Assembly: GCF_949628265.1 (NCBI RefSeq)
Contig: NC_088786.1
Location: forward strand, 5,704,001 to 5,768,000
DNA: 64,000 bases
Source of the DNA: Cloeon dipterum
Lineage: Eukaryota > Arthropoda > Insecta > Ephemeroptera > Baetidae
Direction of reading: 5' to 3'
The first letter of the stretch is position 1. The number at the start of each line of letters is the position of its first letter. Shown here in pieces: positions 3,849 to 31,403 of this stretch. Position numbers and translations under genes: made by a program. A model generated the notes under the pieces. That model saw only the letters and a program-made list of their open reading frames with translations. It did no database searches and had not been told where the DNA came from.

Positions 3849-3860
3849 TATTTGAGTAGT

Positions 3861-3986
3861 GTCACTTATAGCATCATTTCTGTCACTTGTGGCATCTGTT
3901 GTTAAAATTCTGTCACTTATAGCATCCTATCAAAGATGCCATAAGTGACGGAAAAGATGCTATAAGTGACAGTCACTTATGGCATC
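3861..3986. repeat. Left terminal cluster of the 15-bp motif GTCACTTATRGCATC
   Basis: The motif occurs six times in 126 bases: forward at 3861, 3882 (variant GTCACTTGTGGCATC), 3912 and 3972, and reverse at 3935 and 3956. One reverse copy closes the right end (31375-31389). These are the obvious candidates for terminal recognition sites of the element's recombinase or DNA-binding proteins. Confidence 0.8.
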
Positions 3987-4289
3987 ACGCGAAAAATACA
4001 TAAACAAACGATTTCTTAGGTTGGCAGCACTTAGGCGTGGCCTGTGGTGGGGCGGTACTGGGCGGAGCTACTATTTCGGTTCGCGACGCGTTCACCGGCC
4101 GGAAGAACCGTTGCGCAATAATCGTAACCGGTTTTTTATACGGGATCACCGAGTTGGAGGTGGGTGCTGCATCGCTGAAACAACTGAGCATCGGCATCCG
4201 CACCACCATTTTGTGCTTCGTTGTCAGCGTTTTTAGACCGCGTGCGGCTGCATTTTTTATTATTTCGTGTGTTTTGAGTGCTTTTTGGA

Positions 4290-7200
4290 ATGGAAAACGG
4301 GCGTGATCAGTGCTCCCTGGACTGGAGGTTCGACCTGAGTCGTGTGAAGGACGCGATACAGAAGGATGAGTTGGACAAGAGGCGATGCGCGAACGAGCGG
4401 CTGCCTGGTTTCAGTGCGGTAAGTGTTGTCCCTGATTATTTGCATGCTGTTTGTAGTGTATTAGCTGATGGAGGTTAGTAATTGAAGGGTGACATTGGTT
4501 TTGGAATGTTTACAGGTGCTCCCTGGTTGTTTTTCTGCAGTGCAGATTGGGAAAATCGAGGGGTCCGGTTTGGGAATGTAAGTAGATGGAATGTATTTGT
4601 AGATGGGTGGGTTATTTAGCATGCTAAATCGTTTCAGGCGGCTCCCGGAAAGCCAGCAGGGCTACCGCGATCTGAACCGGAGGTGCCGAGAAAGACAAAA
4701 CCAATATCATACCCTGGATTCCAGGGTCCGGACAACGCACGAGGGCCGGCATCTATTTGTATCGCGCCGTAGCATTAGGATGCACGATTTGGCAATGATT
4801 CCGGCGTACGTAAAGGATGCCGAATCGGAACTGGAGTATTCGTAAGTGGTCATGGGAGACGTATTTCAATTTTAAAAGACATGAATGGTGTTATGTAGGT
4901 ACGAAGATCACCTGAATCTGCTAGGGATTGAAAATTGGGTATTCCGTGGGGATCGATCAATGCTCTTGCCAAGGTAGGATTGTAGACGAAGGGTTGTACT
5001 TTCAGTTTCTTTACCTGGCAGGTGATTGAAGGATGTCTGGAGGCATGCAGCATAATTTGTTTAATTATAATATAACCAATTGTTCTTTTCCCAGATGTGT
5101 GAGTGTGTGTGTGTGTATGTGTGTCCGAATGGATTTATTTTCAGGCATGTCAGAGTCCAGACGGTGGCACGAGAGGTGCAGTAGTCAGTCTGAGACGTCC
5201 TGCCAGCAGCCGTGCCAAGGCTGGAGCACCTCTGGGGCATGCTGCAGTGAGAGGCGGTTGCCCTGGGCGCCCTGCTAGCCGCCAAACACCTCGAAGCTGG
5301 CAGTTGGAGAGTGGTTGGCGACCGAGCTGGGTGGCGAAGGAGTTGTCTGCGTGTGGGGTGAGTGAAAACTGTTTTGCATGTGCAATATGTGTTTGGCATT
5401 CAGCTGTGGCCTTCCTTATTGCGCCATGTTGTGTTTTTTGTGCGCTGTGACTGATTCACTTTGATTTCAGGCATGTGAGAGTCCAGACGGTGGCACGAGA
5501 GGTGCAGCAGTCAGTCTGAGACGCCCCGCCAGCAGCCTTGCCAAGGCTGGGAGTCCCCAGGAGCACCTCTGGGGCATGCTGCAGTGAGAGGCGGTTGCCC
5601 TGGGCGCCCTGCTAGCCGCCAAACACCTCGAAGCTGGCAGTTGGAGAGTGGTTGGCGACCGAGCTGGGTGGCGAAGGAGTTGTCTGCGTGTGGGGTGAGT
5701 GAAAACTGTTTTGCATGTGCAAAATGTGTTTGGCATTCAGCTGTGGCCTTCCTTATTGCGCCATGTTGTGTTTTTTGTGCGCTGTGACTGATTCACTTTG
5801 ATTTCAGGCATGTGAGAGTCCAGACGGTGGCACGAGAGGTGCAGCAGTCAGTCTGAGACGCCCCGCCAGCAGCCTTGCCAAGGCTGGGAGTCCCCAGGAG
5901 CACCTCTGGGGCATGCTGCAGTGAGAGGCGGTTGCCCTGGGCGCCCTGCTAGCCGCCAAACACCTCGAAGCTGGCAGTTGGAGAGTGGTTGGCGACCGAG
6001 CTGGGTGGCGACGGAGTTGTCTGCGTGTGGGGTGAGTGAAAACTGTTTTGCATGTGCAAAATGTGTTTGGCATTCAGCTGTGGCCTTCCTTATTGCGCCA
6101 TGTTGTGTTTTTTGTGCGCTGTGACTGATTCACTTTGATTTCAGGCATGTGAGAGTCCAGACGGTGGCACGAGAGGTGCAGCAGTCAGTCTGAGACGCCC
6201 CGCCAGCAGCCTTGCCAAGGCTGGGAGTCCCCAGGAGCACCTCTGGGGCATGCTGCAGTGAGAGGCGGTTGCCCTGGGCGCCCTGCTAGCCGCCAAACAC
6301 CTCGAAGCTGGCAGTTGGAGAGTGGTTGGCGACCGAGCTGGGTGGCGAAGGAGTTGTCTGCGTGTGGGGTGAGTGAAAACTGTTTTGCATGTGCAAAATG
6401 TGTTTGGCATTCAGCTGTGGCCTTCCTTATTGCGCCATGTTGTGTTTTTTGTGCGCTGTGACTGATTCACTTTGATTTCAGGCATGTGAGAGTCCAGACG
6501 GTGGCACGAGAGGTGCAGCAGTCAGTCTGAGACGCCCCGCCAGCAGCCTTGCCAAGGCTGGGAGTCCCCAGGAGCACCTCTGGGGCATGCTGCAGTGAGA
6601 GGCGGTTGCCCTGGGCGCCCTGCTAGCCGCCAAACACCTCGAAGCTGGCAGTTGGAGAGTGGTTGGCGACCGAGCTGGGTGGCGACGGAGTTGTCTGCGT
6701 GTGGGGTGAGTGAAAACTGTTTTGCATGTGCAAAATGTGTTTGGCATTCAGCTGTGGCCTTCCTTATTGCGCCATGTTGTGTTTTTTGTGCGCTGTGACT
6801 GATTCACTTTGATTTCAGGCATGTGAGAGTCCAGACGGTGGCACGAGAGGTGCAGCAGTCAGTCTGAGACGCCCCGCCAGCAGCCTTGGCAAGGCTGGGA
6901 GTCCCCAGGAGCACCTCTGGGGCATGCTGCAGTGAGAGGCGGTTGCCCTGGGCGCCCTGCTAGCCGCCAAACACCTCGAAGCTGGCAGTTGGAGAGTGGT
7001 TGGCGACCGAGCTGGGTGGCGAAGGAGTTGTCTGCGTGTGGGGTGAGTGAAAACTGTTTTGCATGTGCAATATGTGTTTGGCATTCAGCTGTGGCCTTCC
7101 TTATTGCGCCATGTTGTGTTTTTTGTGCGCTGTGACTGATTCACTTTGATTTCAGGCATGTGAGAGTCCAGACGGTGGCACGAGAGGTGCAGCAGTCAGT

Positions 7201-9568
7201 CTGAGACGCCCCGCCAGCAGCCTTGCCAAGGCTGGGAGTCCCCAGGAGCACCTCTGGGGCATGCTGCAGTGAGAGGCGGTTGCCCTGGGCGCCCTGCTAG
7301 CCGCCAAACACCTCGAAGCTGGCAGTTGGAGAGTGGTTGGCGACCGAGCTGGGTGGCGACGGAGTTGTCTGCGTGTGGGGTGAGTGAAAACTGTTTTGCA
7401 TGTGCAAAATGTGTTTGGCATTCAGCTGTGGCCTTCCTTATTGCGCCATGTTGTGTTTTTTGTGCGCTGTGACTGATTCACTTTGATTTCAGGCATGTGA
7501 GAGTCCAGACGGTGGCACGAGAGGTGCAGCAGTCAGTCTGAGACGCCCCGCCAGCAGCCTTGCCAAGGCTGGGAGTCCCCAGGAGCACCTCTGGGGCATG
7601 CTGCAGTGAGAGGCGGTTGCCCTGGGCGCCCTGCTAGCCGCCAAACACCTCGAAGCTGGCAGTTGGAGAGTGGTTGGCGACCGAGCTGGGTGGCGACGGA
7701 GTTGTCTGCGTGTGGGGTGAGTGAAAACTGTTTTGCATGTGCAAAATGTGTTTGGCATTCAGCTGTGGCCTTCCTTATTGCGCCATGTTGTGTTTTTTGT
7801 GCGCTGTGACTGATTCACTTTGATTTCAGGCATGTGAGAGTCCAGACGGTGGCACGAGAGGTGCAGCAGTCAGTCTGAGACGCCCCGCCAGCAGCCTTGC
7901 CAAGGCTGGGAGTCCCCAGGAGCACCTCTGGGGCATGCTGCAGTGAGAGGCGGTTGCCCTGGGCGCCCTGCTAGCCGCCAAACACCTCGAAGCTGGCAGT
8001 TGGAGAGTGGTTGGCGACCGAGCTGGGTGGCGAAGGAGTTGTCTGCGTGTGGGGTGAGTGAAAACTGTTTTGCATGTGCAATATGTGTTTGGCATTCAGC
8101 TGTGGCCTTCCTTATTGCGCCATGTTGTGTTTTTTGTGCGCTGTGACTGATTCACTTTGATTTCAGGCATGTGAGAGTCCAGACGGTGGCACGAGAGGTG
8201 CAGCAGTCAGTCTGAGACGCCCCGCCAGCAGCCTTGCCAAGGCTGGGAGTCCCCAGGAGCACCTCTGGGGCATGCTGCAGTGAGAGGCGGTTGCCCTGGG
8301 CGCCCTGCTAGCCGCCAAACACCTCGAAGCTGGCAGTTGGAGAGTGGTTGGCGACCGAGCTGGGTGGCGACGGAGTTGTCTGCGTGTGGGGTGAGTGAAA
8401 ACTGTTTTGCATGTGCAAAATGTGTTTGGCATTCAGCTGTGGCCTTCCTTATTGCGCCATGTTGTGTTTTTTGTGCGCTGTGACTGATTCACTTTGATTT
8501 CAGGCATGTGAGAGTCCAGACGGTGGCACGAGAGGTGCAGCAGTCAGTCTGAGACGTCCCGCCAGCAGCCGTGCCAAGGCTGGAGCACCTCTGGGGCATG
8601 CTGCAGTGAGAGGCGGTTGCCCTGGGCGCCCTGCTAGCCGCCAAACACCTCGAAGCTGGCAGTTGGAGAGTGGTTGGCGACCGAGCTGGGTGGCGACGGA
8701 GTTGTCTGCGTGTGGGGTGAGTGAAAACTGTTTTGCATGTGCAAAATGTGTTTGGCATTCAGCTGTGGCCTTCCTTATTGCGCCATGTTGTGTTTTTTGT
8801 GCGCTGTGACTGATTCACTTTGATTTCAGGCATGTGAGAGTCCAGACGGTGGCACGAGAGGTGCAGCAGTCAGTCTGAGACGTCCCGCCAGCAGCCGTGC
8901 CAAGGCTGGAGCACCTCTGGGGCATGCTGCAGTGAGAGGCGGTTGCCCTGGGCGCCCTGCTAGCCGCCAAACACCTCGAAGCTGGCAGTTGGAGAGTGGT
9001 TGGCGACCGAGCTGGGTGGCGAAGGAGTTGTCTGCGTGTGGGGTGAGTGAAAACTGTTTTGCATGTGCAAAATGTGTTTGGCATTCAGCTGTGGCCTTCC
9101 TTATTGCGCCATGTTGTGTTTTTTGTGCGCTGTGACTGATTCACTTTGATTTCAGGCATGTGAGAGTCCAGACGGTGGCACGAGAGGTGCAGCAGTCAGT
9201 CTGAGACGCCCCGCCAGCAGCCTTGCCAAGGCTGGGAGTCCCCAGGAGCACCTCTGGGGCATGCTGCAGTGAGAGGCGGTTGCCCTGGGCGCCCTGCTAG
9301 CCGCCAAACACCTCGAAGCTGGCAGTTGGAGAGTGGTTGGCGACCGAGCTGGGTGGCGAAGGAGTTGGGAGGAAGGCAGGGTTAGTACGAGCTGTTCGAT
9401 AGCAGCGTGCCCTCCCGGTGTGCTTGCCTGCGGTGTTCCTTTTGCTTGTGGTTGACCGACTGAGTGGTAATGCTTTTCTGCGTGACCTAACGTTTAGCAG
9501 GTGGAAATGTGAAATTGTTTTACTCCTGTACGATTTGCTGAAAATGATTTAACCCAGTGTGCCAATGT

Positions 9569-9606
<38 letters not shown>

Positions 9607-11916
9607 TGTGCATTTAGGTGGTAGCTGAAATGGTTGCTGAGCAATTTTCATTTTGCGGGGGATGTATGATATGTGGGGAAACGATTGTTGTGGTATCCTT
9701 TTGAAATAATTGTTTTTCTCCAGCGTCATCACCGGCCTGTACCTCGACCTCGCGAAGCTGGAGACCCTCCTGGACAGAGCTGGTGGCATTGCCAAGGTGA
9801 CATGCATTGACCAAGGCCGACCAGACCGACGAGCTGTATGGGAGGCACGACTGGAAGTGGAGCCGACACCTGAAGTCTACGTCTGCCTCGAAGCAACTGT
9901 TGGCGAGTGGTGTCAGCTCGAGGTTATTGGCGGCAGGCCCGTTGGTGGTACGTATCATTTTTTTAATTGACTGCTTAGGTGTAATTGTTGCAACTGCAGG
10001 CAAGATGCTGGTGAGGAGCCATGACCGTGGGACAGTTACGCTCACCGAGGGTGACGGAGCCAAGCTGTTGGACCGGGAGCTCCTTGTTGCCCTGTGGAAC
10101 CAGCGGTGCCGCCTGCAGTTCCTGCCAACCTTGGTGGGGCACCGTCTTAGGGTCACCGGCTCCGTCGATGGATTGAGTGCCCTTGCCGACTACTTCCAGG
10201 GAGGTGGCTTGGGAACAAAGGAGTGCGGCATCCCACTGGTGAGAAATCACTTTGATTGTGTGTTGATAGCTTTACTGACCCAATTGTTTCTGCCGCAGGT
10301 TGACGACCACCATCTTGCAGCGCTGAAGCGAGGAGAGGGATTCATGGACGAGATGCTCAACCAGGAGCAGAGGAGGGCTGTGGTGGAGATCCTGGAGCAC
10401 AGGCGGCCCCACGTCCCATACCTGCTGGTCGGCCCCCCAGGAACGGGAAAATCCGCAACCTTGGACGAGGTCGTGCTTCAGTTGGCTACCCACCACAAGG
10501 AGAAGAGGACACTTGACGCTCTGTGAGATCTTATTGGTTTGTGTAACTTGTTAACTAATTGATTTTCCTTTGTTTTCAGCATCTACTACGTGGTCCCGTC
10601 CAACCTGGGGGTTCGGTCGACCGCCGAAAGGTTGTTGCGGTTGGGAATGAGGAGCGAGCAACTGGTGCGCCTCTACTCGGAGCATGAGCACGTGAAGGGG
10701 ACCGACCCCCTCAGAGACATCTCGCAGCGAGCTTCCCGGATGCAACACCTCATCACCACCAGCGTGGTCATCGGGACCCCCATCGCCATTGCTCGCATCG
10801 GGCTGACCCTTGGTGAGAGGAATCCACCGCCCCTTCTGTTGCTGGTAAGTTTTAATCAATTGTACAATTTTGTTTTGATTACATTTCATTTTTTTTTAAA
10901 CTGGACGAGGCAGCCTACATCAAGCTGGGAGAGGCCTTTGCGGCTCTGACGGCGAATGGAGAGCCTGTGCAGACTGTGCTTGCCGGGGACCGGAAGCAGC
11001 TTCGGCCACGCTGTTTCAGCAAGGTGGCCGAAAGCATGCATGGCAAGTACAGTCTGTTCGATTTGGCCGCCGACAGTGGATTCTTCGAGGATGATGGGTA
11101 AGTAGCATTGAGGCTGGATGGAACGGTAATTACCTAATCATGTTTCAGATTGAGGCCGAAGGAGGGGCTTGGTGTGATGCTGCGTCTCAACTATCGGGCC
11201 CACGAGAAGTTGGTGAGGGAGGTCTCCTGCCTGTTTTACAACGGACTGATGGTAAGCATGACATGCTCGAGTGACTGTTTTGTTATGACTTTTGTTTTGC
11301 ATTTCAGATCCCTGGCCCAGCTAGCCTCCCCTCCAACAGCCTGCTGCTGCTGCGTTTCGGGCTGGAGAGACTGGGACTCGACGCGAACCAGAGCGCCATC
11401 CGCTGGGTGGACATTGATGGTGCAATGCAACGCGACCCCCTCACCAGGTCCCTCTTCAACGTAGTGGAAGCCGACGCTGTGGTGTCCGTGGTGGACTCGC
11501 TGTGCCGGTGCATCCCCCCCCAACAGGTTACGGTGCTTGCACCGTACCGTAAGCAGGTATGTTGTGTGCCGAATTGTAACTAGTGGTGCAATGTTGATAA
11601 TTCTTCGTCTATGTTTCAGGTGGCGGTGCTCCGGGAGAAGCTCCCCCGTGACATCACTGTCTTCACTGCGGACGAGGTGATAGGCCAGGAGCGGCCTGTA
11701 ATTGTGGTGTCACTGGTACGAAGCGACCGTGGAGAAGACAACGCGCGTGATCATGGGGTGGGCTTCTTGAGGGAGCCAAACAGGGTCAATGTTCTGATCA
11801 GCCGTGCCAAGGAGATCGTGATCCTGGTAGGCTCCAGGGCCCACTTCATCAGGAGTGGTGTTGGCTTTTGGGGAATCCTCCCAACCAGGACTGAACCCCT
11901 CCCGGCACAGTTCTAA
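4290..11916 (+). CDS. SF1 superfamily RNA/DNA helicase (UPF1/MOV10-like), 12 exons, about 754 aa
   Basis: Inferred exons are 4290-4418, 4516-4577, 4638-4841, 4899-4973, 9724-9947, 10000-10238, 10299-10522, 10580-10844, 10904-11097, 11149-11251, 11308-11556 and 11620-11916. They total 755 codons. Helicase motifs appear in order: Walker A GPPGTGKS (about residue 356), Walker B LDEAA (about 475), LAGDRKQLRP, LRLNYRAHEKLV, VLAPYRKQ, TADEVIGQE and NVLISRAKE (about 711). This is the UPF1/MOV10 group of ATP-driven nucleic-acid translocases. The N-terminal exons (YEDHLNLLGIE) are divergent. Exon 4 joins exon 5 in frame across a 4,750-base intron that holds the left tandem array. The acceptor before exon 10904 reads CTG instead of CAG. 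The next AG would delete exactly the D-E pair of Walker B, so this copy may be damaged. Its likely role is replication or mobilisation of the element (inference). Confidence 0.85.
5145..9368 (+). repeat. Left subterminal tandem array, 13 units of 326 or 337 bp
   Basis: Units start at 5145, 5471, 5808, 6145, 6482, 6819, 7156, 7493, 7830, 8167, 8504, 8830 and 9156. Units 1, 11 and 12 are 326 bp. Units 2-10 are 337 bp because of an 11-base insertion (GAGTCCCCAGG region). The last is partial. Every unit has a strong acceptor (TTTGATTTCAG) and a strong donor (GGGTGAGTG), so it looks like a 213-base exon plus a 113-base intron. In 326-bp units the exon is open for 71 codons; in 337-bp units the insertion leads to a stop. 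The same unit recurs inverted at 26,862-30,690. The array lies within a helicase intron. Confidence 0.92.
9569..9606. repeat. (GT)n microsatellite
   Basis: About eighteen GT dinucleotides occur in a row inside the large helicase intron. A shorter GT tract lies at 5098-5123. Confidence 0.9.
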
Positions 11917-12292: not shown

Positions 12293-15200
12293 TTACTGAA
12301 CTTTCTTTGGGCGTCCTCTTTTCTTCTCAGGCAAACTTGAAACCCTGGAGAAACATTGAGTTAACTGAATTTGTTTCAACACTTCTATAAGAAATACCTG
12401 GTAATGCTGGAACTTGCGCGCTTCTTGGGAAACCGTTTTTCCTGGTTTGAGATGTCAGCAGCAGCGTCACTGTCTGCCGTCACAGGGGCAGATGCTTCCT
12501 TTCCTTTGGCAACAGTTTTGTTCTTGGAGCCCCGCGGTCGGCCTGGGCGTCGTTTCTGTGGCACCGTCAACGTGGGAACCTGTACCTGCGCTTCTGCATT
12601 GCTAGTTTCATGCACGGATCTGTAAGGTGGTGTTAGCTTTGCGAATCTAGTCAGTTGAATTAAATTACCCTGAATCAGCCGAGATGTTGGTCTCTGCGGC
12701 GGACTCATTGCTGCTCGTTTCAGTTTCTTCTGCCTCACTTTCGGACTGCGCTGCTCTGTTAAAGTGATCATTATAAGTTACTCATCCAGCCATCAAGATC
12801 CCTTGTTATACTTTTTCGTTTTCTTGCGTAGCGTCGGTTTATTCGGAGCTCTGACCTTGTTCTTGCTCCCGGGTTTGCGTCCCCGCCGTGGTTTAGTCGG
12901 CTGTGGTTTCACAGCAAGCTCTGCCTCTGCGGCTTCCTCATCCACGTCCTCAAAGAGAATGGCATCTTGGAGGTCCTCGATGCTGAAGCTGATGGAAGAA
13001 GGAGAAAGGTAATGTTAATACGTGGAATAGGGGGAAACGTGGAAGAAGATTTTTTTCAGCCGGTAAATCATAGGCGGCTGTCCAAGTTTTGTTTACGGGA
13101 AATACACTTACTCGTCTTCCGGGTCAGCATTGTCCGGTTGGGCAGCGGTTGTTCTGATCTCTGCTGCCTGTTCCAAGGTGGTTCCCTTGTGCTTTTGAAT
13201 GTTACCATCTTGGAAAATCTCTAGTGCTCTGCCGACCATCAGATTGAAACCAAGGCCCGTCGGAAGATCGTAGTACTGGTCGTGGACCGTGATTGAGTGT
13301 CCCATCAACAGGCACAGGAGCTTCTTTGAAGGTCCGCTAAGCTCCATCTGGCCCAAAGTTGTCGCGAAGGTCGTCCTGATGGCACGCGCCCTGAGGTCAT
13401 CAGGTCGTTCTGCAAGGCACGCTTCAGCAGCTGCTTTCTGCGGCCCTCTCACGTCCATCGGTTTTCCGTTTTTCGTGCCGAACAGGTAAATGCAACTCTC
13501 CGGAATGCCCGCCGCAGCACGCACTCCTTTGTCAGACAGGGTTGTGAAGTAGTCGCGCCATTCTGGTTTTAAGAGGGAAAGAACTTTGGTAGACCCTTTC
13601 CCGGTGGAGGTAAGCACGTCGTACCGCTCGGCCAGTTCTTGTTGCGCTTTTGATAGCGCATCGCTGTTCTTCCCCGAGTAATTGTTTCTCTCCTCATAGT
13701 TCTGCAGAGTAACGAAGCTTCCCTCAGTCGCCCTGCGAGCGTTGAAGGAACAGAAAGCCAGGTTCAAATGTGTTGCCAACGCCTTGTAGTGACACTCAAA
13801 CTCTGACTCTTTCTTCGCTTTCTGCAGGTGAATGTGGTGGTAGCTGCACATTCCTTCAAGGTGCGCGTTGTAGAGTTGCAGGTCGTGGGGTGACACGTGC
13901 GTCTTGTGGAGCTTCTCGCTGTTTTTCTTCTGCTTTGCAGCCCTTGTTGTCGTATAAATACGGTACCTCTTAGTTTCCAGGTATTCGATCAGCAACCGGC
14001 ACTCTTCGGTCCACAATTTACGCTCGGCTTCGTCCTCGAACCGCTCCTGCTGCAACTCACTCGCTACTTGTCTGATGAGTGAGCTGAGCGTCATGACGTC
14101 ATTGGGCCGCTTGAAATCTACCCTGTTTTCCTCACCGCCGCAGATGGTGTGGATGACCTCGATGATTCGGTCAGTCTTGCTTGCCGGTCGGTTGCTGGGA
14201 AGCCCCTGCCAAACGGACCGCTTGCAGATGTCCCTCAGCGAGGTTACTAATCCAGGGATTTCTGCATGCACCTTGAAAGCGGTGTACAAAGCGTAGAGAA
14301 GGCGGATATTCCTCCGGCTGATTTGCACTCCGTTGTTGCCAGTTTCCTGCTGCAGGCCAAAATTTTTTACCACTCTGATCACCAGCTGATCATCTGTGAT
14401 GATGAAGCTGGCGATCCTTTTGTCACGCATGTTGTTAAGGATTTTGTCCACCGCAACCGTGTAGCTCTGGTCCAAATTTGTCCGGAGTTGCTCAATGCGG
14501 TTCAACTCGAGCAGGTCAACCGGTGGTGCTGGTTCTCGGGCCTCAACGCCTCGCCGAGTGCGGCAAATCTGCAAGTGCCTCTTGAAATTGCGGCTCGTGT
14601 GAAGTGTCAGGCAGTAGGGGCACTTGTTTGTTGTGCGAACGCTGGCTGTCTGGCTGCGCCGCGACGGTACCAGCGTGCCCTGCCTGCACTGCAATACTGT
14701 GGCGTTGTGCTGCTCGTTACCAAGGAGCCGCAATTCACTGAAGAAAGCTCTCATTCGTTCCGCGGATGGCTTCGCAGCGTACAGATCTTGGATTTCTGGC
14801 TCCTGCATGTGGCCCAACCGCAGATGCCTCATGATGTTCCCCCTAAAGTTCTTTCCGCAGAAATAGCAATATTGGTTCTTTTTCACGCCGGCGGCAAGAG
14901 CCAAGATCTTGACGGGCGTGGTCTTCACCTTCTTGTGAGGGGACAGAGTAAGGCATGAACCGCCCATGGCGGCAAATCTTCTCGAACCAGCTGCAATTGG
15001 ACAGTTGGTACCGTAAGAAAAAACTGCAGTCATTATTTTTACATTGCCTACCCGCTTTTGTGAATGTTTCGTAAACTTTTCTCGTGTGTTTCTTCAGTAC
15101 CCCGCTGAACAGGTCGAATGCTCGCCACTCCGTGCCAGCATGCACGCCAAAGATGTATACCACTCCCTCTGCAGGATCAATATCCAGGGATTGAAAGGTA

Positions 15201-21070: not shown

Positions 21071-21362
21071 TTTCCATGTCCGATACTGATTGGCAGCTAC
21101 CTTCAGTTACATTTTGCATTGTAATTATTTTCATATGCGTGATACACTGCTTGTTACCACAAATAAATTAACCATTCCAAAAATTTCATTGTTTTCTTTA
21201 ACATTCCATGGCATTGCTCGCAGCAAACACGATTTTAATTTCTACAGTTTGTCGCAATTTCCATATTGCTCTAATACAATTTTTTCAATTGTTCGTGCAA
21301 CACGTTTCGTTATAAACAAAATCACGCTACGTTAACCCTTTCCCTCCGTTGCTGATTGTTTT

Positions 21363-23716
21363 CCGACAGTTAAATTGAACTGGATCTGCATTGCCGTGGC
21401 AGCGTAACCGCCATGGCCGAAACAGTAATTTTCGGATTTTGGCCGACGATTTCGATAAAAATTGCTTCGCGAATTATTCCGCGAATAATTACACAAAAAT
21501 TAAGTGGATGTGGTGCGGAATTAAATTTTTTTTTTCCGACAGTTAAATTGAACTGGATCTGCATTGCCGTGGCAGCGTAACCGCCATGGCCGAAACAGTA
21601 ATTTTCGGTTTTTGGGCGAAATTTCCACATCAACTTGCTTCCCGAGTGATTCCTCAACTAACTTTACAAAAATTTTTAATGAAACAGTGAAATTTGAATT
21701 TTTTGAGCGACAATAGAAATTACACCATGCAACGCGACTAGGATCGCACTCAGCTTTATTTGGCGATCAAAGTGCTAAACTGGCAGCGGATCTGCATTGC
21801 CGTGGCAGCGTAACCGCCATGGCCGAAACAGTAATTTTCGGATTTTGGCCGACGATTTCGATAAAAATTGCTTCCCGAATTATTCCGCGAATAATTACAC
21901 AAAAATTAAGTGGATGTGGTGCGGAATTAAATTTTTTTTTCCGACAGTTAAATTGAACTGGATCTGCATTGCCGTGGCAGCGTAACCGCCATGGCCGAAA
22001 CAGTAATTTTCGGATTTTGGCCGACGATTTCGATAAAAATTGCTTCGCGAATTATTCCGCGAATAATTACACAAAAATTAAGTGGATGTGGTGCGGAATT
22101 AAATTTTTTTTTTCCGACAGTTAAATTGAACTGGATCTGCATTGCCGTGGCAGCGTAACCGCCATGGCCGAAACAGTAATTTTCGGTTTTTGGGCGAAAT
22201 TTCCACATCAACTTGCTTCCCGAGTGATTCCTCAACTAACTTTACAAAAATTTTTAATGAAACAGTGAAATTTGAATTTTTTGAGCGACAATAGAAATTA
22301 CACCATGCAACGCGACTAGGATCGCACTCAGCTTTATTTGGCGATCAAAGTGCTAAACTGGCAGCGGATCTGCATTGCCGTGGCAGCGTAACCGCCATGG
22401 CCGAAACAGTAATTTTCGGATTTTGGCCGACGATTTCGATAAAAATTGCTTCCCGAATTATTCCGCGAATAATTACACAAAAATTAAGTGGATGTGGTGC
22501 GGAATTAAATTTTTTTTTTCCGACAGTTAAATTGAACTGGATCTGCATTGCCGTGGCAGCGTAACCGCCATGGCCGAAACAGTAATTTTCGGATTTTGGC
22601 CGACGATTTCGATAAAAATTGCTTCGCGAATTATTCCGCGAATAATTACACAAAAATTAAGTGGATGTGGTGCGGAATTAAATTTTTTTTTTCCGACAGT
22701 TAAATTGAACTGGATCTGCATTGCCGTGGCAGCGTAACCGCCATGGCCGAAACAGTAATTTTCGGTTTTTGGGCGAAATTTCCACATCAACTTGCTTCCC
22801 GAGTGATTCCTCAACTAACTTTACAAAAATTTTTAATGAAACAGTGAAATTTGAATTTTTTGAGCGACAATAGAAATTACACCATGCAACGCGACTAGGA
22901 TCGCACTCAGCTTTATTTGGCGATCAAAGTGCTAAACTGGCAGCGGATCTGCATTGCCGTGGCAGCGTAACCGCCATGGCCGAAACAGTAATTTTCGGAT
23001 TTTGGCCGACGATTTCGATAAAAATTGCTTCCCGAATTATTCCGCGAATAATTACACAAAAATTAAGTGGATGTGGTGCGGAATTAAATTTTTTTTTTCC
23101 GACAGTTAAATTGAACTGGATCTGCATTGCCGTGGCAGCGTAACCGCCATGGCCGAAACAGTAATTTTCGGATTTTGGCCGACGATTTCGATAAAAATTG
23201 CTTCGCGAATTATTCCGCGAATAATTACACAAAAATTAAGTGGATGTGGTGCGGAATTAAATTTTTTTTTCCGACAGTTAAATTGAACTGGATCTGCATT
23301 GCCGTGGCAGCGTAACCGCCATGGCCGAAACAGTAATTTTCGGTTTTTGGGCGAAATTTCCACATCAACTTGCTTCCCGAGTGATTCCTCAACTAACTTT
23401 ACAAAAATTTTTAATGAAACAGTGAAATTTGAATTTTTTGAGCGACATTAGAAATTACACCATGCAACGCGACTAGGATCGCACTCAGCTTTATTTGGCG
23501 ATCAAAGTGCTAAACTGGCAGCGGATCTGCATTGCCGTGGCAGCGTAACCGCCATGGCCGAAACAGTAATTTTCGGATTTTGGCCGACGATTTCGATAAA
23601 AATTGCTTCCCGAATTATTCCGCGAATAATTACACAAAAATTAAGTGGATGTGGTGCGGAATTAAATTTTTTTTTCCGACAGTTAAATTGAACTGGATCT
23701 GCATTGCCGTGGCAGT
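21363..23716. repeat. Satellite block with 579-bp higher-order repeat
   Basis: About 13 monomers share the core GATCTGCATTGCCGTGGCAG followed by CGTAACCGCCATGGCCGAAA. Monomers of about 170, 174 and 235 bp alternate, so the full pattern repeats every 579 bp almost identically (compare 21787, 22366, 22945). The high identity indicates recent homogenisation. It fills the gap between the second BEN-like gene and the methyltransferase gene. The small frames it generates on both strands are repeat artefacts. Confidence 0.93.
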
Positions 23717-23914
23717 TGATCTGCAAGCCCAAACGGTTACTGCAGTGGGCGTGGAGTGCATCTGCAAAATCTCATGAATCACTTTCAGCAACTCTGCTCA
23801 ACCTTCCAATTTTGGACTTTTACTGCAATTCTCCAAGGCTGTCCTTCGTGCTTACACTAATTCTGCGCATAAATTGCTTCAAGTGACACACTGTTGCCAC
23901 GCAATTTCTCAAAA

Positions 23915-26723
23915 ATGCGGCCACTTGGATCATATGCCCAATTTGGCAATCAGTTCTGCAAAATTGTCAGTGCAGAGGAAGATCAGGCATTCAGGTCCCC
24001 GGCAATTTACCACATCACAGTGCTCGAGTGAGTCTTTTCGAACGAACCATTACAATATCTCGCAGCTCTAATTTATTCCCATAGGCGAGTTGCTAAGACT
24101 CTCATCCAGAACGGACCGCCAAATGAGTTGGTCCAAATTAAAGGATGCCATTACGTGGAAGACAGGGCCCTCCGTGATACTATTCGAGTTCTACCATCCA
24201 TGCAGGAGGCTTCTACAGATGCTTCATATTTCTGCAGACTCTAGTACTTATAATACACTTAAACAACAAGTTTTGCCTAATTAGCGATTAAACACTCGTG
24301 CAGTTTTGATGGATCCTCGTTCCTACCAACAATGATTTTCAACGAACAAGACAAGTGGTGCCCTTGCAGGTATTCAAGCAAACGAAAGATGCTGGCGCAC
24401 GTCACAACGGACGGATTGAATGGCCTAACTTCTGTAACACATCATTTTAATATTCAAAAGGCCAACAAAAACTCTATCAAATGTTTCATTATGGTGTCAC
24501 AGGTGCGGTTCGGCTCGTCCGTTGCTATTGAGAAGGGGACATGCTTAGCCACAACACTCAAATCAGAGCAATTGCCAGAAGTGCCTGGACAAAAATTACT
24601 CCGCGTTGTCCGCGTTGACAAAATCAAGGTCAAAAAAACCGGTGACAAAAAATCAGACCAGGTACTCGCTGCATCAAAGATTCGGTTGGCTGTCACTTGC
24701 TTTGTCAGACCTCCTGAGACCAACAGTTGTTCGCAAGAATCGCCTGCAAATCTTCTACACTTGTCTTCATACAGTGAATATACTCATTTAACAAAACCCT
24801 CCGCTTTTTTTAAAACCATCTTCACTACCATTCACAGAAACTGAAATTTCTGGTGCACTTTTCGTCGCGGTCGTTAACGTCTCGTTCCATAACACACTGG
24901 AAGTGAAGTACACAACCGACATCGATCAATACGGAACGGCCACATACATCTGCAACAGTCTCCTAGACATGCAAACCAACCAAGTTGTATTGCCTGCTTC
25001 CATCCCAAAATTAGTAATTGAATTCATTTATGCTAACAGCTTTCGATGCTTGATGGCTCCCTTGCTTCAACAAAGAGTGTTACTCCGTCACTCGAATCAA
25101 ATCCACTCCGATGCCTAGATCTGTTCTGCGGCTGCGGAGGATTATCCCTAGGGTTGGAGATGAGCCACCTGACAACCTGCCTTTGGGCAGTTGACGCAGA
25201 CCCTACAGCGTGCAAATCCTTCGCTGCCAACTTCAGACAAGCAACAGTGTACCAAAGTTCAGCCATTGACTGGTTGAAAGAACTAAAAACGGTAACTTGT
25301 TCGAGCACAACACCAAGGAAGATTAATACTCCTAAATCCAAAATAGGGAGCATTGTTCACAAAAAAGGGACAGAAGCTGCCACAAACCGGCGAGGTGGAA
25401 ATGATTATTGGAGGACCGCCGTGCCAAGGATTCTCCAAATTAAATAGATTCAAAAACAACAACACCTCAGTCACAAACGTAACTACTTAGAATTCACTAA
25501 AATCAACTTTCCATTGTTTCTTTCATGCCATTCTTCAGAAATCACAAGTTCCAGTGTTTCTGGAAATCGTCGCCTACTTCAGGCCTAAGTGCTTCTTGAT
25601 GGAAAATGTCAAATCCTTCATCACAGAGGATGGTGGAAAACACTTTCTGGCAGCGCTGCAGGCAACCAAAGACTTGGGTTATTATTTCAACTTCAATGTC
25701 TTACAGGCTGCTGATTTCGGCGCACCTCAACAACGCCCTAGGTTGTCCTCTCCAAAACTTCACTAATCCCACTAACAACATTTCCCAATCTGCTAGGTTC
25801 TTCCTGTTTGGCACCCTCGACAGCAGACGGCTGGCTGCAGCACCAATAAGCACCCATTACTCTGGTCTGGAAGTCACAAGTGTCAAAGCAGCCAGTCATA
25901 CTCTGGTACCAATTCATGCTTTCCACCACTGCCTAATTCGTAGCTTCCTTCCCCCTACAGTCATTCACGGACAAACAGGAAGCTTACTTTCAAAAAGTTA
26001 CTGTGCACCACGCCATTGCTGATTTGCCAGATGTTGAGCCACAAGAGAGCGGCAACAAAATCAGCTACAACTCAATCAACTCAACTTTCCAATTCAAAGT
26101 GAGTATAACAATCATTTCAATCCGAAACTATTAATAACATTTCTTCACAGATGAGGAATGGCAGTGACACTTTGCGATTGCATAAGCTCCCCACGTCACT
26201 GAATCCAGATGACCAAAAAAGGATCACAATGATCCCGCCAGGGTCAGACTGGCGATGCCTACCTCAGTCAGAACACGAGGAATGCTTCAAAACGTTTGCG
26301 CTAACTTCGCTTAAAATTTATTTAAAATTAATCTTCCTCTTCTCTACTTCCATTAGAGGCATGCCCCTTGCACCTAAGTCACTGGTAAAGTCCTCTCGCT
26401 CTAATGGTGACTGGAAAGGAGCTTATGGCAGACTGCGATGGTCCGACCTCTTCATGACAGTTTTAACAAGACCAACCCTTGCTTCTAAGACTGGGACAAT
26501 CATCCATCCTATCTACAATAGAACCCTGACAATACGAGAGTTTGCACGAGCACAGACCTTTCCAGACAACTTCAAATTCAAAGGGACCATAGCTCAAGTT
26601 CAGCGACAGGTAGCCTATCTAAGTCATTAAAGCCCTTTGATAATTAATAATATTGCTCTACAGATTGGAAACGCGGTACCCCCCCTTCTGGCTGAATCAC
26701 TCGGACGTGCATTCAAAATCTAA
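23915..26723 (+). CDS. DNMT1-type DNA (cytosine-5) methyltransferase with BAH-like regions, 13 exons, about 693 aa
   Basis: Inferred exons are 23915-24027, 24085-24243, 24304-24433, 24503-24773, 24838-24983, 25040-25291, 25374-25478, 25539-25741, 25797-25905, 25961-26098, 26151-26293, 26357-26609 and 26664-26723. They total 694 codons. Catalytic motifs are intact: DLFCGCGG (SAM binding, about residue 300), GGPPCQGFS with the nucleophile Cys at about 374, ENV (about 414), QQRPR, and the C-terminal [24 protein letters not shown] and [10 protein letters not shown] match DNMT1 rather than DNMT3. Upstream, divergent BAH-like regions surround a WCPC motif like the one between the DNMT1 BAH domains. 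No RFTS or CXXC domain fits, because the satellite begins just upstream. The first exon and the 24983/25040 junction are uncertain. AATAAA lies at 26773. All catalytic exons are open, so this copy looks functional. Confidence 0.88.
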
Positions 26724-26861
26724 CAAAACGTACGCCTCATTCTCCTCTTTCATAACAACACGAGTCATATTCAATAAAATTTTTACTTCATAACTGTGTA
26801 TTTATTTCCATTCATTACATTCCATTCCTGCACAGTCCCTCCAATGGCTGCCACCAGCATG

Positions 26862-29800
26862 AAGACCGAAGCATGGCCGGCGAGCAGGGCGCCCAGGGCA
26901 ACCGCCTCTCACTGCAGCATGCCCCAGAGGTGCTCCAGCCTTGGCACGGCTGCTGGCGGGGCGTCTCAGACTGCCTGCTGCACCTCTCGTGCCACCGTCT
27001 GGACTCTCACATGCCTGAAATCAAAGTGAATCAGTCACAGCGCACAAAAAACACAACATGGCGCAATAAGGAAGGCCACAGCTGAATGCCAAACACATAT
27101 TGCACATGTAAAACAGTTTTCACTCACCCCACACGCAGACAACTCCTTCGCCACCCAGCTCGGTCGCCAACCACTCTCCAACTGCCAGCTTCGAGGTGTT
27201 TGGCGGCTAGCAGGGCGCCCAGGGCAACCGCCTCTCACTGCAGCATGCCCCAGAGGTGCTCCTGGGGACTCCCAGCCTTGGCAAGGCTGCTGGCGGGGCG
27301 TCTCAGACTGCCTGCTGCACCTCTCGTGCCACCGTCTGGACTCTCACATGCCTGAAATCAAAGTGAATCAGTCACAGCGCACAAAAAACACAACATGGCG
27401 CAATAAGGAAGGCCACAGCTGAATGCCAAACACATATTGCACATGCAAAACAGTTTTCACTCACCCCAACACGCAGACAACTCCTTCGCCACCCAGCTCG
27501 GTCGCCAACCACTCTCCAACTGCCAGCTTCGAAGTGTTTGGCGGCTAGCAGGGCGCCCAGGGCAACCGCCTCTCACTGCAGCATGCCCCAGAGGTGCTCC
27601 AGCCTTGGCACGGCTGCTGGCGGGACGTCTCAGACTGACTGCTGCACCTCTCGTGCCACCGTCTGGACTCAGACATGCCTGAAATCAAAGTGAATCAGTC
27701 ACAGCGCACAAAAAACACAACATGGCGCAATAAGGAAGGCCACAGCTGAATGCCAAACACATATTGCACATGTAAAACAGTTTTCACTCACCCCAACACG
27801 CAGACAACTCCTTCGCCACCCAGCTCGGTCGCCAACCACTCTCCAACTGCCAGCTTCGAAGTGTTTGGCGGCTAGCAGGGCGCCCAGGGCAACCGCCTCT
27901 CACTGCAGCATGCCCCAGAGGTGCTCCAGCCTTGGCACGGCTGCTGGCGGGACGTCTCAGACTGACTGCTGCACCTCTCGTGCCACCGTCTGGACTCTCA
28001 CATGCCTGAAATCAAAGTGAATCAGTCACAGCGCACAAAAAACACAACATGGCGCAATAAGGAAGGCCACAGCTGAATGCCAAACACATTTTGCACATGC
28101 AAAACAGTTTTCACTCACCCCACACGCAGACAACTCCGTCGCCACCCAGCTCGGTCGCCAACCACTCTCCAACTGCCAGCTTCGAGGTGTTTGGCGGCTA
28201 GCAGGGCGCCCAGGGCAACCGCCTCTCACTGCAGCATGCCCCAGAGGTGCTCCTGGGGACTCCCAGCCTTGGCAAGGCTGCTGGCGGGGCGTCTCAGACT
28301 GCCTGCTGCACCTCTCGTGCCACCGTCTGGACTCTCACATGCCTGAAATCAAAGTGAATCAGTCACAGCGCACAAAAAACACAACATGGCGCAATAAGGA
28401 AGGCCACAGCTGAATGCCAAACACATATTGCACATGTAAAACAGTTTTCACTCACCCCAACACGCAGACAACTCCTTCGCCACCCAGCTCGGTCGCCAAC
28501 CACTCTCCAACTGCCAGCTTCGAAGTGTTTGGCGGCTAGCAGGGCGCCCAGGGCAACCGCCTCTCACTGCAGCATGCCCCAGAGGTGCTCCAGCCTTGGC
28601 ACGGCTGCTGGCGGGACGTCTCAGACTGACTGCTGCACCTCTCGTGCCACCGTCTGGACTCAGACATGCCTGAAATCAAAGTGAATCAGTCACAGCGCAC
28701 AAAAAACACAACATGGCGCAATAAGGAAGGCCACAGCTGAATGCCAAACACATATTGCACATGTAAAACAGTTTTCACTCACCCCAACACGCAGACAACT
28801 CCTTCGCCACCCAGCTCGGTCGCCAACCACTCTCCAACTGCCAGCTTCGAAGTGTTTGGCGGCTAGCAGGGCGCCCAGGGCAACCGCCTCTCACTGCAGC
28901 ATGCCCCAGAGGTGCTCCTGGGGACTCCCAGCCTTGGCACGGCTGCTGGCGGGACGTCTCAGACTGACTGCTGCACCTCTCGTGCCACCGTCTGGACTCT
29001 CACATGCCTGAAATCAAAGTGAATCAGTCACAGCGCACAAAAAACACAACATGGCGCAATAAGGAAGGCCACAGCTGAATGCCAAACACATATTGCACAT
29101 GTAAAACAGTTTTCACTCACCCCACACGCAGACAACTCCTTCGCCACCCAGCTCGGTCGCCAACCACTCTCCAACTGCCAGCTTCGAGGTGTTTGGCGGC
29201 TAGCAGGGCGCCCAGGGCAACCGCCTCTCACTGCAGCATGCCCCAGAGGTGCTCCTGGGGACTCCCAGCCTTGGCAAGGCTGCTGGCGGGGCGTCTCAGA
29301 CTGACTGCTGCACCTCTCGTGCCACCGTCTGGACTCTCACATGCCTGAAATCAAAGTGAATCAGTCACAGCGCACAAAAAACACAACATGGCGCAATAAG
29401 GAAGGCCACAGCTGAATGCCAAACACATATTGCACATGCAAAACAGTTTTCACTCACCCCACACGCAGACAACTCCGTCGCCACCCAGCTCGGTCGCCAA
29501 CCACTCTCCAACTGCCAGCTTCGAGGTGTTTGGCGGCTAGCAGGGCGCCCAGGGCAACCGCCTCTCACTGCAGCATGCCCCAGAGGTGCTCCTGGGGACT
29601 CCCAGCCTTGGCAAGGCTGCTGGCGGGGCGTCTCAGACTGACTGCTGCACCTCTCGTGCCACCGTCTGGACTCTCACATGCCTGAAATCAAAGTGAATCA
29701 GTCACAGCGCACAAAAAACACAACATGGCGCAATAAGGAAGGCCACAGCTGAATGCCAAACACATTTTGCACATGCAAAACAGTTTTCACTCACCCCACA

Positions 29801-30690
29801 CGCAGACAACTCCGTCGCCACCCAGCTCGGTCGCCAACCACTCTCCAACTGCCAGCTTCGAGGTGTTTGGCGGCTAGCAGGGCGCCCAGGGCAACCGCCT
29901 CTCACTGCAGCATGCCCCAGAGGTGCTCCTGGGGACTCCCAGCCTTGGCAAGGCTGCTGGCGGGGCGTCTCAGACTGCCTGCTGCACCTCTCGTGCCACC
30001 GTCTGGACTCTCACATGCCTGAAATCAAAGTGAATCAGTCACAGCGCACAAAAAACACAACATGGCGCAATAAGGAAGGCCACAGCTGAATGCCAAACAC
30101 ATATTGCACATGTAAAACAGTTTTCACTCACCCCAACACGCAGACAACTCCTTCGCCACCCAGCTCGGTCGCCAACCACTCTCCAACTGCCAGCTTCGAA
30201 GTGTTTGGCGGCTAGCAGGGCGCCCAGGGCAACCGCCTCTCACTGCAGCATGCCCCAGAGGTGCTCCAGCCTTGGCACGGCTGCTGGCGGGACGTCTCAG
30301 ACTGACTGCTGCACCTCTCGTGCCACCGTCTGGACTCAGACATGCCTGAAATCAAAGTGAATCAGTCACAGCGCACAAAAAACACAACATGGCGCAATAA
30401 GGAAGGCCACAGCTGAATGCCAAACACATATTGCACATGTAAAACAGTTTTCACTCACCCCAACACGCAGACAACTCCTTCGCCACCCAGCTCGGTCGCC
30501 AACCACTCTCCAACTGCCAGCTTCGAAGTGTTTGGCGGCTAGCAGGGCGCCCAGGGCAACCGCCTCTCACTGCAGCATGCCCCAGAGGTGCTCCTGGGGA
30601 CTCCCAGCCTTGGCACGGCTGCTGGCGGGGCGTCTCAGACTGACTGCTGCACCTCTCGTGCCGCCGTCTGGACTCTCACATGCCTGAAAA
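26862..30690 (-). repeat. Right subterminal tandem array, about 12 units, inverted relative to the left array
   Basis: The units are the same 326/337-bp sequence as at 5145-9368 in reverse orientation. Boundaries are recognised by CCTGAAATCAAAGTGAATCA, the complement of the acceptor region. Some units share the 11-base insertion. Others form a distinct variant with CCCCAACACGC and TTCGAAGTG. The last full unit decays at 30,690 and a worn unit continues to about 30,900. It begins only about 140 bases after the methyltransferase stop. It makes the element's two ends subterminal inverted repeats several kilobases long. Confidence 0.92.
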
Positions 30691-31374
30691 CAAAGTTAAT
30701 CAGTCACTGTCCATAAAATACATGATATAGCGCAATAAGGAAGGCCAAAAATCAATGCCTTACACATATTTCAATTTTAAAACTGTTTCCACTCACCCCG
30801 CCACGCAGCCAACTCCGTCCTCACCCAGCTCGGTCCCCTAACACTCTCCAACTGCCAAGTTAGCGGTGCTTGGCAGCAAGCAGGGCGCCCAGGGCATACA
30901 CCTGGCCCTGCTGCATGCAACGCTGGGCGCCTACGGGGACTTAAAACTTTGCCCGCGGCATAAATTCAGGGCATAAACTCAGACAACAATGGCGGCGACT
31001 TTTAGAAAAGCACTCATGGCACAATCACAAATGATGTCAAGGCGCATGCGCCAGATGGTCTGTAATCACTACCGCGCAGCGCTCACAACACCACTGGTGC
31101 TGCCACCTTCCCATACCACACTCGAAAAACCGGTTGTTTTGGCACCATCCCCACCCATTTACAACCGTCCAGCTTGGATGACGCCCATCACCTTGATAAT
31201 GCCAACCTCTGAAATTCGTCAACTTTGACCATTTTTTTCACCCCCAACCCCAACCCCAAAAAATCCAAAAAAATATTTTTTAACACCCCCCCAACCGCAT
31301 TGACGCCCACAGCAAGTATGAAGCGAATTCATTACTATCATTTTTGTAAACAAAACAATAAAAATATTCAGAAG
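30691..31374. other. Right subterminal region
   Basis: It begins with a degenerate array unit (to about 30,900), then unique sequence with a 79-codon frame at 30,989-31,228 that I do not recognise. A run of A/C-rich sequence follows (about 31,240-31,310). No gene is supported. Confidence 0.5.
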
Positions 31375-31389
31375 GATGCCATAAGTGAC
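31375..31389 (-). repeat. Right terminal copy of the 15-bp motif
   Basis: GATGCCATAAGTGAC is the exact inverse of the innermost left copy (3972-3986). It lies 14 bases inside the right border defined by the empty site. Confidence 0.85.
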
Positions 31390-31403
31390 GCTATTCTGTT
31401 TAT

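Follow-up and report, generated by a model that had tools for sequence, protein, structure and literature searches.

Large transposons that are driven by a recombinase are best known from fungi, where they are called Starships. Among bacteria, integrative elements of the Tn916 and lambda types insert by a conservative crossover that carries over a coupling sequence from the donor, and they have arms around the core. Part of one account defines Starships by a DUF3435 captain as the first 5' gene (PMC12134995), and passages of a paper on Cryptons report animal Cryptons without terminal repeats (PMC3212892). Other large animal DNA elements, as excerpts of a further article describe them, are Teratorn, with a piggyBac-like transposase and herpesvirus genes; Polinton/Maverick, with an integrase and viral genes; and Helitron, with a Rep-helicase (PMC6431247). 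As for mobile elements with a DNA methyltransferase (DNMT), portions of one study describe SymbioLINE-Dnmt, SymbioDIRS-Dnmt3, and KnitGypsy-Dnmt3, retrotransposons that occur in dinoflagellates and charophytes; the enzymes of the DIRS and Gypsy elements are of the Dnmt3 type, the DIRS elements also carry a tyrosine recombinase (YR), and a single sentence there mentions DNA transposons from marine viruses that encode a DNMT (PMC5890265).

The locus that we compare with these systems lies in a 64,000-nucleotide stretch (the window) of the genome of the mayfly Cloeon dipterum. The inserted element occupies 3849-31407 (27,559 bp, no strand assigned), starts with TATTTGAG, and finishes with CTGTTTATAGAG. 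The assembly holds five nearly identical copies of 24.7-28.4 kb at unrelated sites on four contigs: outside of the arrays described below they are 99.7-100% identical, and their flanks are all different. All 49 exons were recovered in each of four copies, with substitutions in 1 to 5 exons per copy. An earlier note had proposed a mobile element, and we agree: gene order and ends are the same in all five copies, and there is a collinear sister family as well. Nor are these genes, within the C. dipterum genome, at a fixed host position without terminal motifs, which is what would have spoken against mobility. So, going by its copies and their empty sites, this is genuine and recently active mobile DNA of about 27 kb. 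We also consider it probable that it is a large DNA transposon that is mobilised by its own tyrosine recombinase.

The ends carry much of this argument. A 15-bp motif, GTCACTTRTRGCATC, occurs seven times in the window (the mean in shuffled sequence was 0.01). Six of these form a cluster at the left end (3861-3986; four on the + strand and two on the - strand), and the seventh is an inverted copy near the right end (31375-31389, - strand), so the inverted terminal motifs that had been noticed are real. If the two ends of the element are joined, the 15-bp inverted arms lie 18 and 12 bp from the joint, which none of 2,000 shuffles for this family equalled, and the arm spacing in the sister family is identical. 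The joined ends, as reconstructed, form a near-symmetric site with 15-bp arms around a core.

We found empty counterparts for four copies. For copy A it lies within the window, as a paralogue of the joined flanks (about 54368-54908, + strand) that has the AGAG core once and no element; for copy B it lies among neighbouring satellite units; and the empty site was present in all four fetched relatives for copy D and in both for copy E. For copy C no empty site turned up: besides its own two flanks, the left flank had just two matches, both partial. The empty site in the window had been used to define the borders. The left end at 3849 holds, but the right end does not lie at 31403: the ends as fixed from five copies place it 4 bp further out, at 31407, because the last AGAG is part of the inserted unit. 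In the empty-site comparison, the left core AGAG (3845-3848) is the target's, while the right one (31404-31407, no strand assigned) is carried by the element.

Could the AGAG at both ends instead be a target-site duplication? On that reading the mover would be a DDE transposase, the element would end in short terminal inverted repeats and duplicate 4 bp of its target, and the YR-like gene would be cargo. This would fit copies A and B, which have AGAG on both sides, and it would fit the inverted motifs near the ends. But the left and right cores are unequal in three of the five copies (TGAG/GGAG in C, TAAG/AGAG in D, and CCAG/AGAG in E), and for D and E the empty sites reveal a clean insertion, no target-site duplication, and a right AGAG that was imported rather than copied from the target (TAAG or CCAG). 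These two sites rule out the target-site duplication, and Pfam matches of the five proteins include no transposase domain; we regard a DDE element as very unlikely. All of the cores that we read end in AG (8 of 8 left ends and 9 of 9 right ends). The target site is thus NNAG, with the terminal AGAG supplied by the element, as seen in D and E. This anatomy fits the integration of a circle by a tyrosine recombinase, and not DDE transposition.

The recombinase gene itself (12293-17139, - strand, 12 exons, 1264 aa) has its core in the exon at 13112-14990. The predicted protein has an N-terminal region, two C2H2-like fingers, a tyrosine-recombinase core, and an AT-hook-like C-terminus (we identified the fingers and the hook by eye). 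Across the recombinases of three families, RR..E, K, R, GH, and YY are invariant (R419/420, K465 or K469, R539, H565, and Y573/574, with 9 residues from H565 to Y574). The catalytic R, K, R, H/W, and Y are in order and at the usual spacing, and the histidine of HxxR is substituted. Profile comparisons gave little. PF00589 is the best Pfam match of the related recombinase P0001, at E = 0.0099, which is short of the cut-off, and there were no matches to the Pfam integrase for the recombinases of this family (family 1), of the sister family (family 3), or for P0123. A PHROGs search found no integrase, and when PDB sequences were searched with the alignment of the recombinases, the single match was irrelevant (E = 0.14). 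With hhalign against lambda Int, Cre, FimB, FimE, and part of XerD, the whole core reached a weak E of 0.12, and the C-terminal part scored 19.64, with 3 of 150 column shuffles as good or better. AlphaFold models were unusable (pLDDT 41 for the full core and 40 for the C-terminal half). The assignment to the tyrosine recombinases is the weakest link in our argument: it is based on motif order, spacing, and the anatomy of insertion, and not on a significant profile match. In two protein searches that reached fairly close relatives, the relatives of the recombinase among the matches listed were solely from Cloeon.

Next to the recombinase is a predicted helicase gene (4290-11916, + strand, 12 exons, 755 aa), which belongs to superfamily SF1 and to the UPF1/SMUBP2/DNA2 group by its AAA_11/AAA_12 core (Pfam AAA_12, E = 2e-33; AAA_11, E = 7e-14). 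In the window copy alone, the 3' splice acceptor of exon 9 is lost (10898-10900, + strand; AAA versus CAG in the four other copies), so our model takes that exon border from the other copies, and the element in the window, which had been described as self-contained, is not. A helicase gene and the lack of a target-site duplication might suggest a rolling-circle, Helitron-like element. However, the nearest PDB chains of the helicase are SMUBP-2 (E = 5e-13), NAM7/UPF1, SEN1, and DNA2, a Rep/HUH domain is missing from the Pfam matches of the five proteins, and the element has paired 15-bp arms at a fixed spacing. Such arms are not known as a Helitron trait, and we find a Helitron-like origin extremely improbable.

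Intron 4 of the helicase contains a tandem array of 12.6 copies of a 337-bp unit (5139-9367, + strand), and the same unit recurs, inverted, in 12.1 copies near the right end (26878-30896, - strand), which bears out the description of two opposed arrays. We rejected the idea that the array units serve the helicase as coding exons: the first would contribute 213 nt and most of the rest would be about 11 nt longer, a difference that shifts the frame, and the phase of exon 4 meets stops. If the array is skipped and exon 4 is joined directly to exon 5, the frame is preserved.

All five genes are multi-exon, as first described: the coding sequences of the helicase, the recombinase, gene 3, gene 4, and the DNMT are 2268, 3795, 666, 1263, and 2208 nt, each a multiple of three with a single terminal stop. 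Gene 3 (17398-18487, + strand, 5 exons, 221 aa) and gene 4 (19391-21070, + strand, 8 exons, 420 aa) have no assigned family. Both had been labelled BEN-like, but neither matches the BEN domain at E up to 1; this domain is also missing from the Pfam results of the recombinases. Between gene 4 and the DNMT are 173-bp repeats (21359-23700, + strand), whose alignments vary between copies of the element.

The fifth gene (23915-26723, + strand, 12 exons, 735 aa) encodes a predicted cytosine-5 DNA methyltransferase. By its C5 methylase domain it belongs to the DNMT1 family (PF00145, E = 3e-59; the best PDB matches are DNMT1 chains, E = 5e-63), and its activity is predicted. The model is shorter than the host's DNMT1-like protein P0016 (1193 aa). 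In a tree of the element enzymes, P0016, and 10 non-animal enzymes, the element DNMTs form one clade (100/97) next to the host DNMT1 (100/99), and they group with it against the 10 non-animal enzymes. CpG values were 0.54-0.57 in the 337-bp arrays, 0.82 in the rest of the element, and 1.03-1.05 in the flanks. Because the one host gene that we tried gave 0.88 and the 173-bp repeats 1.66, CpG depletion can at most suggest self-methylation.

Helicase, recombinase, and DNMT are linked in three Cloeon families, whose recombinases are 40-76% identical to that of the window copy. The sister family is collinear with family 1 and has five genes in common with it, including a conserved gene 4. The more distant family 2 has the three genes in a different order; genes 3 and 4 are matched in the sister family only and had no match in the 27.5 kb of family 2 that were searched. 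The ends of family 2 also differ: when joined they have no inverted arms near the joint, and just one 10-bp pair at 76/78 bp. Between families 1 and 3, dN/dS is 0.16 for the recombinase, 0.20 for the DNMT, and 0.26 for gene 3, at a high dS of 1.2-1.7.

These families bear on two other explanations. First, the element might be a true recombinase transposon that moves without any help from the DNMT, the helicase, and the two small proteins, which would be mere passengers. Cryptons are described, in passages of the paper cited above, as YR-only transposons (PMC3212892), the helicase of the window copy is damaged, and genes 3 and 4 are unmatched in family 2. Yet helicase and DNMT accompany the recombinase in all three families, and dN/dS is far under 1 for the DNMT and gene 3, so we think that the passenger reading is unlikely. 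Second, the element could be an endogenous large DNA virus, or its remnant, that was integrated by a recombinase. Its size is in the tens of kilobases, and endogenous nimaviruses with integrases have been reported from crustaceans (PMC10871703). But Pfam matches of the five proteins include no capsid, packaging, or polymerase domains, the genes are intron-rich, and the three families share a small core gene set; a viral origin seems to us highly improbable.

How might a tyrosine-recombinase transposon of this kind work? The recombinase would bind the 15-bp arms and cut the element out as a circle, whose junction would read arm, 14 bp, NNAG, 12 bp, arm, with CTGTTTAT-NNAG-TATTTGAG at the join. 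This junction would recombine with a chromosomal NNAG, which would leave the inserted element with the target's core at its left end and the core from the circle at its right end. The helicase may aid the copying or remodelling of the circle; this would account for a rise in copy number under a conservative recombinase. The DNMT1-type enzyme, presumably captured, may methylate the element's own DNA and so tune silencing or the recognition of the ends, in which case the element would persist in the germ line.

Our broadest proposal is one on which our judgement is evenly divided: giant DNA transposons of animals that form a superfamily not described before, in which a tyrosine recombinase from a separate lineage would insert a 25-30 kb circle at NNAG through a near-symmetric site with 15-bp arms, a helicase and a DNMT1-type enzyme of single origin would have been kept while at least three families diverged, and the element would write cytosine methylation on itself during its life cycle. 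In the open-licence literature, and in protein searches that reach fairly close relatives, we did not find the combination of an apparently phage-type recombinase and a DNMT described in animals. The suggestion of a new class is consistent with literature and protein searches of that scope. The working principle, a DNA transposon with a tyrosine recombinase, is already known. With this element, two questions become testable in an insect: can elements that depend on a tyrosine recombinase become large and spread among animals, and do transposons manage their host by their own DNA methylation? Genome engineers, too, may take an interest in the short NNAG target and the defined arms.

Of the known systems, Cryptons, including the animal CryptonA and the insect CryptonI, are like the Cloeon element in being tyrosine-recombinase DNA elements with a proposed circle and very short crossover repeats. 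Unlike it, they are described as coding mainly for a YR, while the Cloeon element has about 25-29 kb, five genes, 15-bp inverted arms, and tandem arrays. Cryptons are recognised by short terminal direct repeats of 4-6 bp, on which the crossover acts, and no TIR, and the Cloeon element has imperfect 4-bp NNAG cores and paired 15-bp inverted arms. Crypton-type DUF3504 had no Pfam match in the recombinases of family 1, P0001, P0122, or P0123, and neither did the DUF3435 domain (PF11917) of Starships in the scanned recombinases. Starships are likewise large, multi-gene, and driven by a recombinase, but the recombinase in Cloeon is internal and adjoins the helicase, and the element has an animal host, five young copies, its own DNA methyltransferase, and a compact recurring gene set rather than variable cargo. 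The DNMT-bearing retrotransposons are also mobile elements with a cytosine DNA methyltransferase; in contrast, the Cloeon element is a DNA element of an animal genome with a DNMT1-type enzyme, and reverse transcriptase is missing from the Pfam matches of its five proteins. Teratorn, Polinton/Maverick, and Helitron are large animal DNA elements too, but their enzymes differ. Finally, the Cloeon element shares the crossover principle, and only that, with the bacterial elements of the Tn916 and lambda types, from which it differs in being eukaryotic and intron-rich.

The element at 3849-31407 of the window is real and mobile. The genome (190 Mb in 10 contigs, of which five are called C1 to C5 here) contains five full-length matches to the DNA of its left end (3849-5000), as well as older or partial copies, and these five places are also where its right-end DNA (30900-31420) matches; both sets of matches are at 100% rounded identity. 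By these end matches, copy A, in the window, lies at C1:5707849-5735407, copy B at C5:31809790-31836191, copy C at C2:34345697-34372880, copy D at C1:37774350-37802702, and copy E, on the minus strand, at C3:6661534-6686224. The copies are 24.7-28.4 kb long, and their tandem arrays account at least in part for the differences in length. Outside the arrays, the copies share 99.7-100% identity with the window in the long alignments, while the flanks of the five copies are unrelated to one another.

All five copies start with TATTTGAGTAGTGTCAC and end with CTGTTTAT, then four bases, then flank. From A to E, the left flanks terminate in AGAG, AGAG, TGAG, TAAG, and CCAG, and the four right-end bases are AGAG, AGAG, GGAG, AGAG, and AGAG. 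The earlier note's empty site within the window was borne out: at about 54368-54908, the joined flanks of copy A align to a stretch that lacks the element and has a single AGAG. Copy B lies in a satellite whose neighboring units in the right flank are uninterrupted (the tandem unit is about 80 bp, as seen in flanking pieces L002 and L010 at C5:31.81 and 31.84 Mb). Because the target cores of A and B are themselves AGAG, these copies are uninformative as to whether the 4-bp core at the insertion point is duplicated or element-borne. Copy D sits in a dispersed repeat, and besides its own two flanks, 34 of 38 matches cross the insertion point. Four empty sites that we fetched read TTAAG or TAAAG followed, at that point, by TATTTTAG, so the target core TAAG was kept on the left and the AGAG on the right is element-borne. 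In the local repeat that holds copy E, 4 of the 6 other matches cross the insertion point, and two fetched empty sites read TTCCAG followed by TAATATC and TTCCAAG followed by AAATATC. So here CCAG was kept on the left, and again the AGAG on the right came with the element. The D and E insertions duplicated no bases and lost none. For copy C, no empty site was found among genome matches to its flanks. The element is a real, recently active multi-gene transposon whose insertion is conservative.

Older ends follow the same NNAG rule (ACAG and AGAG for two left ends; CAAG, AAAG, and AGAG for three right ends), as do GCAG and ACAG at the ends of a sister family, family 3, which were placed by likeness to family 1 (the window element and its copies). 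Among the cores read, 8/8 on the left and 9/9 on the right terminate in AG; this count covers the five copies, the two older left and three older right ends, and family 3, with piece L016 giving no end match. The window also has seven occurrences of a 15-bp motif, where 0.01 would be expected, and all of them are at the ends of the element. Joining the ends brings two copies of the motif into an inverted arrangement, at 18 bp (14 bp and the 4-bp core) on one side of the joint and at 12 bp on the other. Joined ends of family 3 have the identical 18/12 spacing with a different spacer sequence, and an arm pair of such spacing arose in 0 of 2000 shuffled family 1 junctions. We infer that the paired arms are a putative recombinase site formed on a circle.

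Movement of the element most likely depends on a tyrosine recombinase of its own, encoded by gene 2 (1264 aa, 12 exons). The earlier note had a separate protein that may overlap much of the recombinase N-terminus; the fused layout is matched by P0122 and P0123, database proteins of 1186 and 1131 aa. Across family 1, family 3, and the more distant family 2, the invariant residues are RR..E (419-423), K465 and K469, R539, GH (564-565), and YY (573-574). Their order matches that of the tyrosine recombinase superfamily, and their spacing nearly does. Profile support is weak: PF00589 is matched by P0001 only (E = 0.0099), and there is no integrase match in PHROGs or the PDB. With hhalign, the whole core aligned to five known recombinases at E = 0.12. 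The C-terminal part scored 19.64 (shuffle mean 13.9; 3 of 150 shuffles were equally high), and this alignment brings the second R, the H, and the Y into register. Two AlphaFold models were useless, probably because there are few relatives. The anatomy of the insertions gives independent support for the call.

All five spliced gene models are in frame with a single terminal stop. The helicase (gene 1; 755 aa, 12 exons) matches AAA_12 (E = 2e-33) and AAA_11 (E = 7e-14), and its nearest PDB chains are SMUBP-2, NAM7/UPF1, SEN1, and DNA2. Gene 3 (221 aa) and gene 4 (420 aa) had no family match in the domain search. Each of copies B-E retains 49/49 exons, with one exon per copy covered in part (cut by the end of a piece), and the recombinase frame is uninterrupted in all five copies, as is one exon of the DNA methyltransferase (DNMT). 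Besides the helicase acceptor, exons with one substitution relative to the window number 1 in B, 2 in C, 4 in D, and 5 in E. The acceptor of helicase exon 9 (10898-10900) is AAA in the window and CAG in the four others, two substitutions; only the window copy has lost it.

The draft model of the DNMT (gene 5; 735 aa) matched PF00145 (E = 3e-59), and its best PDB matches were DNMT1; exon borders were corrected with P0002 and P0003 after those searches. In a tree, the DNMTs carried by elements of all three families group as one clade (100/97), beside the host's DNMT1-like P0016 (100/99), and this group stands apart from 10 other enzymes (three named bacterial, seven unnamed). Given the sampling (a single further animal sequence and, for family 2, a rough row) and the midpoint root, the tree supports one capture, of DNMT1 type, and is silent on its time and source. 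The gene has been retained across the divergence of the three families. Two more DNMT matches lie outside elements (C1:5542901 and C2:6905424). The best 120 of 5954 protein matches to the DNMT comprise Cloeon element enzymes, one DNMT1-like protein of Cloeon, and, for the rest, bacterial or unnamed proteins, in a search whose length limit leaves out most full-length animal DNMT1s.

P0001 has 43 matches in its own genome. Older, partial, or deleted relatives of the element match at about 67-93%, and one has shrunk to about 9 kb. Many old or broken relatives are clustered at C2:35.68-37.10 Mb and C5:1.05-1.20 Mb, both near contig ends, whereas the five young copies are scattered. Family 3 spans C2:35676661 to about 35703040 and was read except for two stretches (about 1.1 and 1.4 kb). 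Its genes are collinear with those of family 1: helicase (+), recombinase (-; 76% identity), gene 3 (+; weak matches), gene 4 twice (+; L041:1657-5761, the second more diverged), and DNMT (+). In family 2, located at about C4:6631078-6660554 and with more copies on C2 and C5, the recombinase (40% identity), helicase, and DNMT genes are arranged differently; genes 3 and 4 were unmatched within the 27.5 kb searched. Its ends, ...CTGCAAAC and CTC(A/T)TAGATTC, are unlike those of family 1. Comparison of families 1 and 3 gives Nei-Gojobori dN/dS values of 0.16 (recombinase), 0.20 (DNMT), and 0.26 (gene 3), with dS of 1.2-1.7; dS is saturated for the helicase and gene 4. When the comparison is with the older copy L033, dN/dS is 0.46 for the helicase, 0.61 for a piece of the recombinase, and 0.32 for the DNMT (91 codons), higher values that might be expected of a decaying copy.

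Among the matches listed, the 337-bp array unit of family 1 occurs in the five copies or adjacent to element relics (lower bounds). The units have acceptor- and donor-like ends, and we treat them as non-coding because the frame is not kept. A 377-bp array lies in the same helicase intron in family 3 and was unmatched by the 337-bp unit in the genome search; family 2 has arrays of 491-bp and 368-bp units. The CpG observed/expected ratio is 0.54-0.57 for the 337-bp arrays, against 0.82 for the remainder of the element and 1.03-1.05 for its flanks, and TpG and CpA are raised in the arrays. This pattern would fit germ-line methylation, as judged from base composition, with poor controls (0.88 in one host gene and 1.66 in 173-bp repeats). 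The 173-bp repeats, inside the element at 21359-23700, are high in CpG, opposite to the 337-bp arrays.

Elsewhere in the window, a 130-aa open frame occurs three times, identically, at 1837-bp spacing (40245-44311), a local tandem duplication. Fragments resembling reverse transcriptase (45972-46645) are, by eye, presumably LINE-type. The same 20-bp tandem repeat recurs at 38184-38243 and 49635-49694, about 11.45 kb apart, which suggests a larger duplication in the element's flank.

Among 5.77 billion proteins, the recombinase had one match as a single-sequence query and two as a three-family alignment, all from Cloeon dipterum and one on a separate 20-kb contig. Each search scored about 8000 length-limited candidates sharing short words and may thus have overlooked distant relatives in other insects. 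Among the listed titles and abstract openings of open-licence papers, there was no animal recombinase transposon with a DNMT. Giant transposons are the subject of a review (PMC6431247). PMC5890265 describes algal retrotransposons that captured a DNMT and mentions DNA transposons of marine viruses that encode one, and PMC12730594 describes fungal DNA transposons with TET/JBP and oomycete ones with SET. According to PMC3212892, Cryptons have short direct repeats of 4 or 6 bp, with a circle proposed, and animal Cryptons are without terminal repeats; PMC12134995 gives Starships a 5'-end captain with DUF3435. The element's sequence family falls outside both definitions that we tested, Crypton and Starship; by its working principle it belongs among the recombinase DNA transposons.
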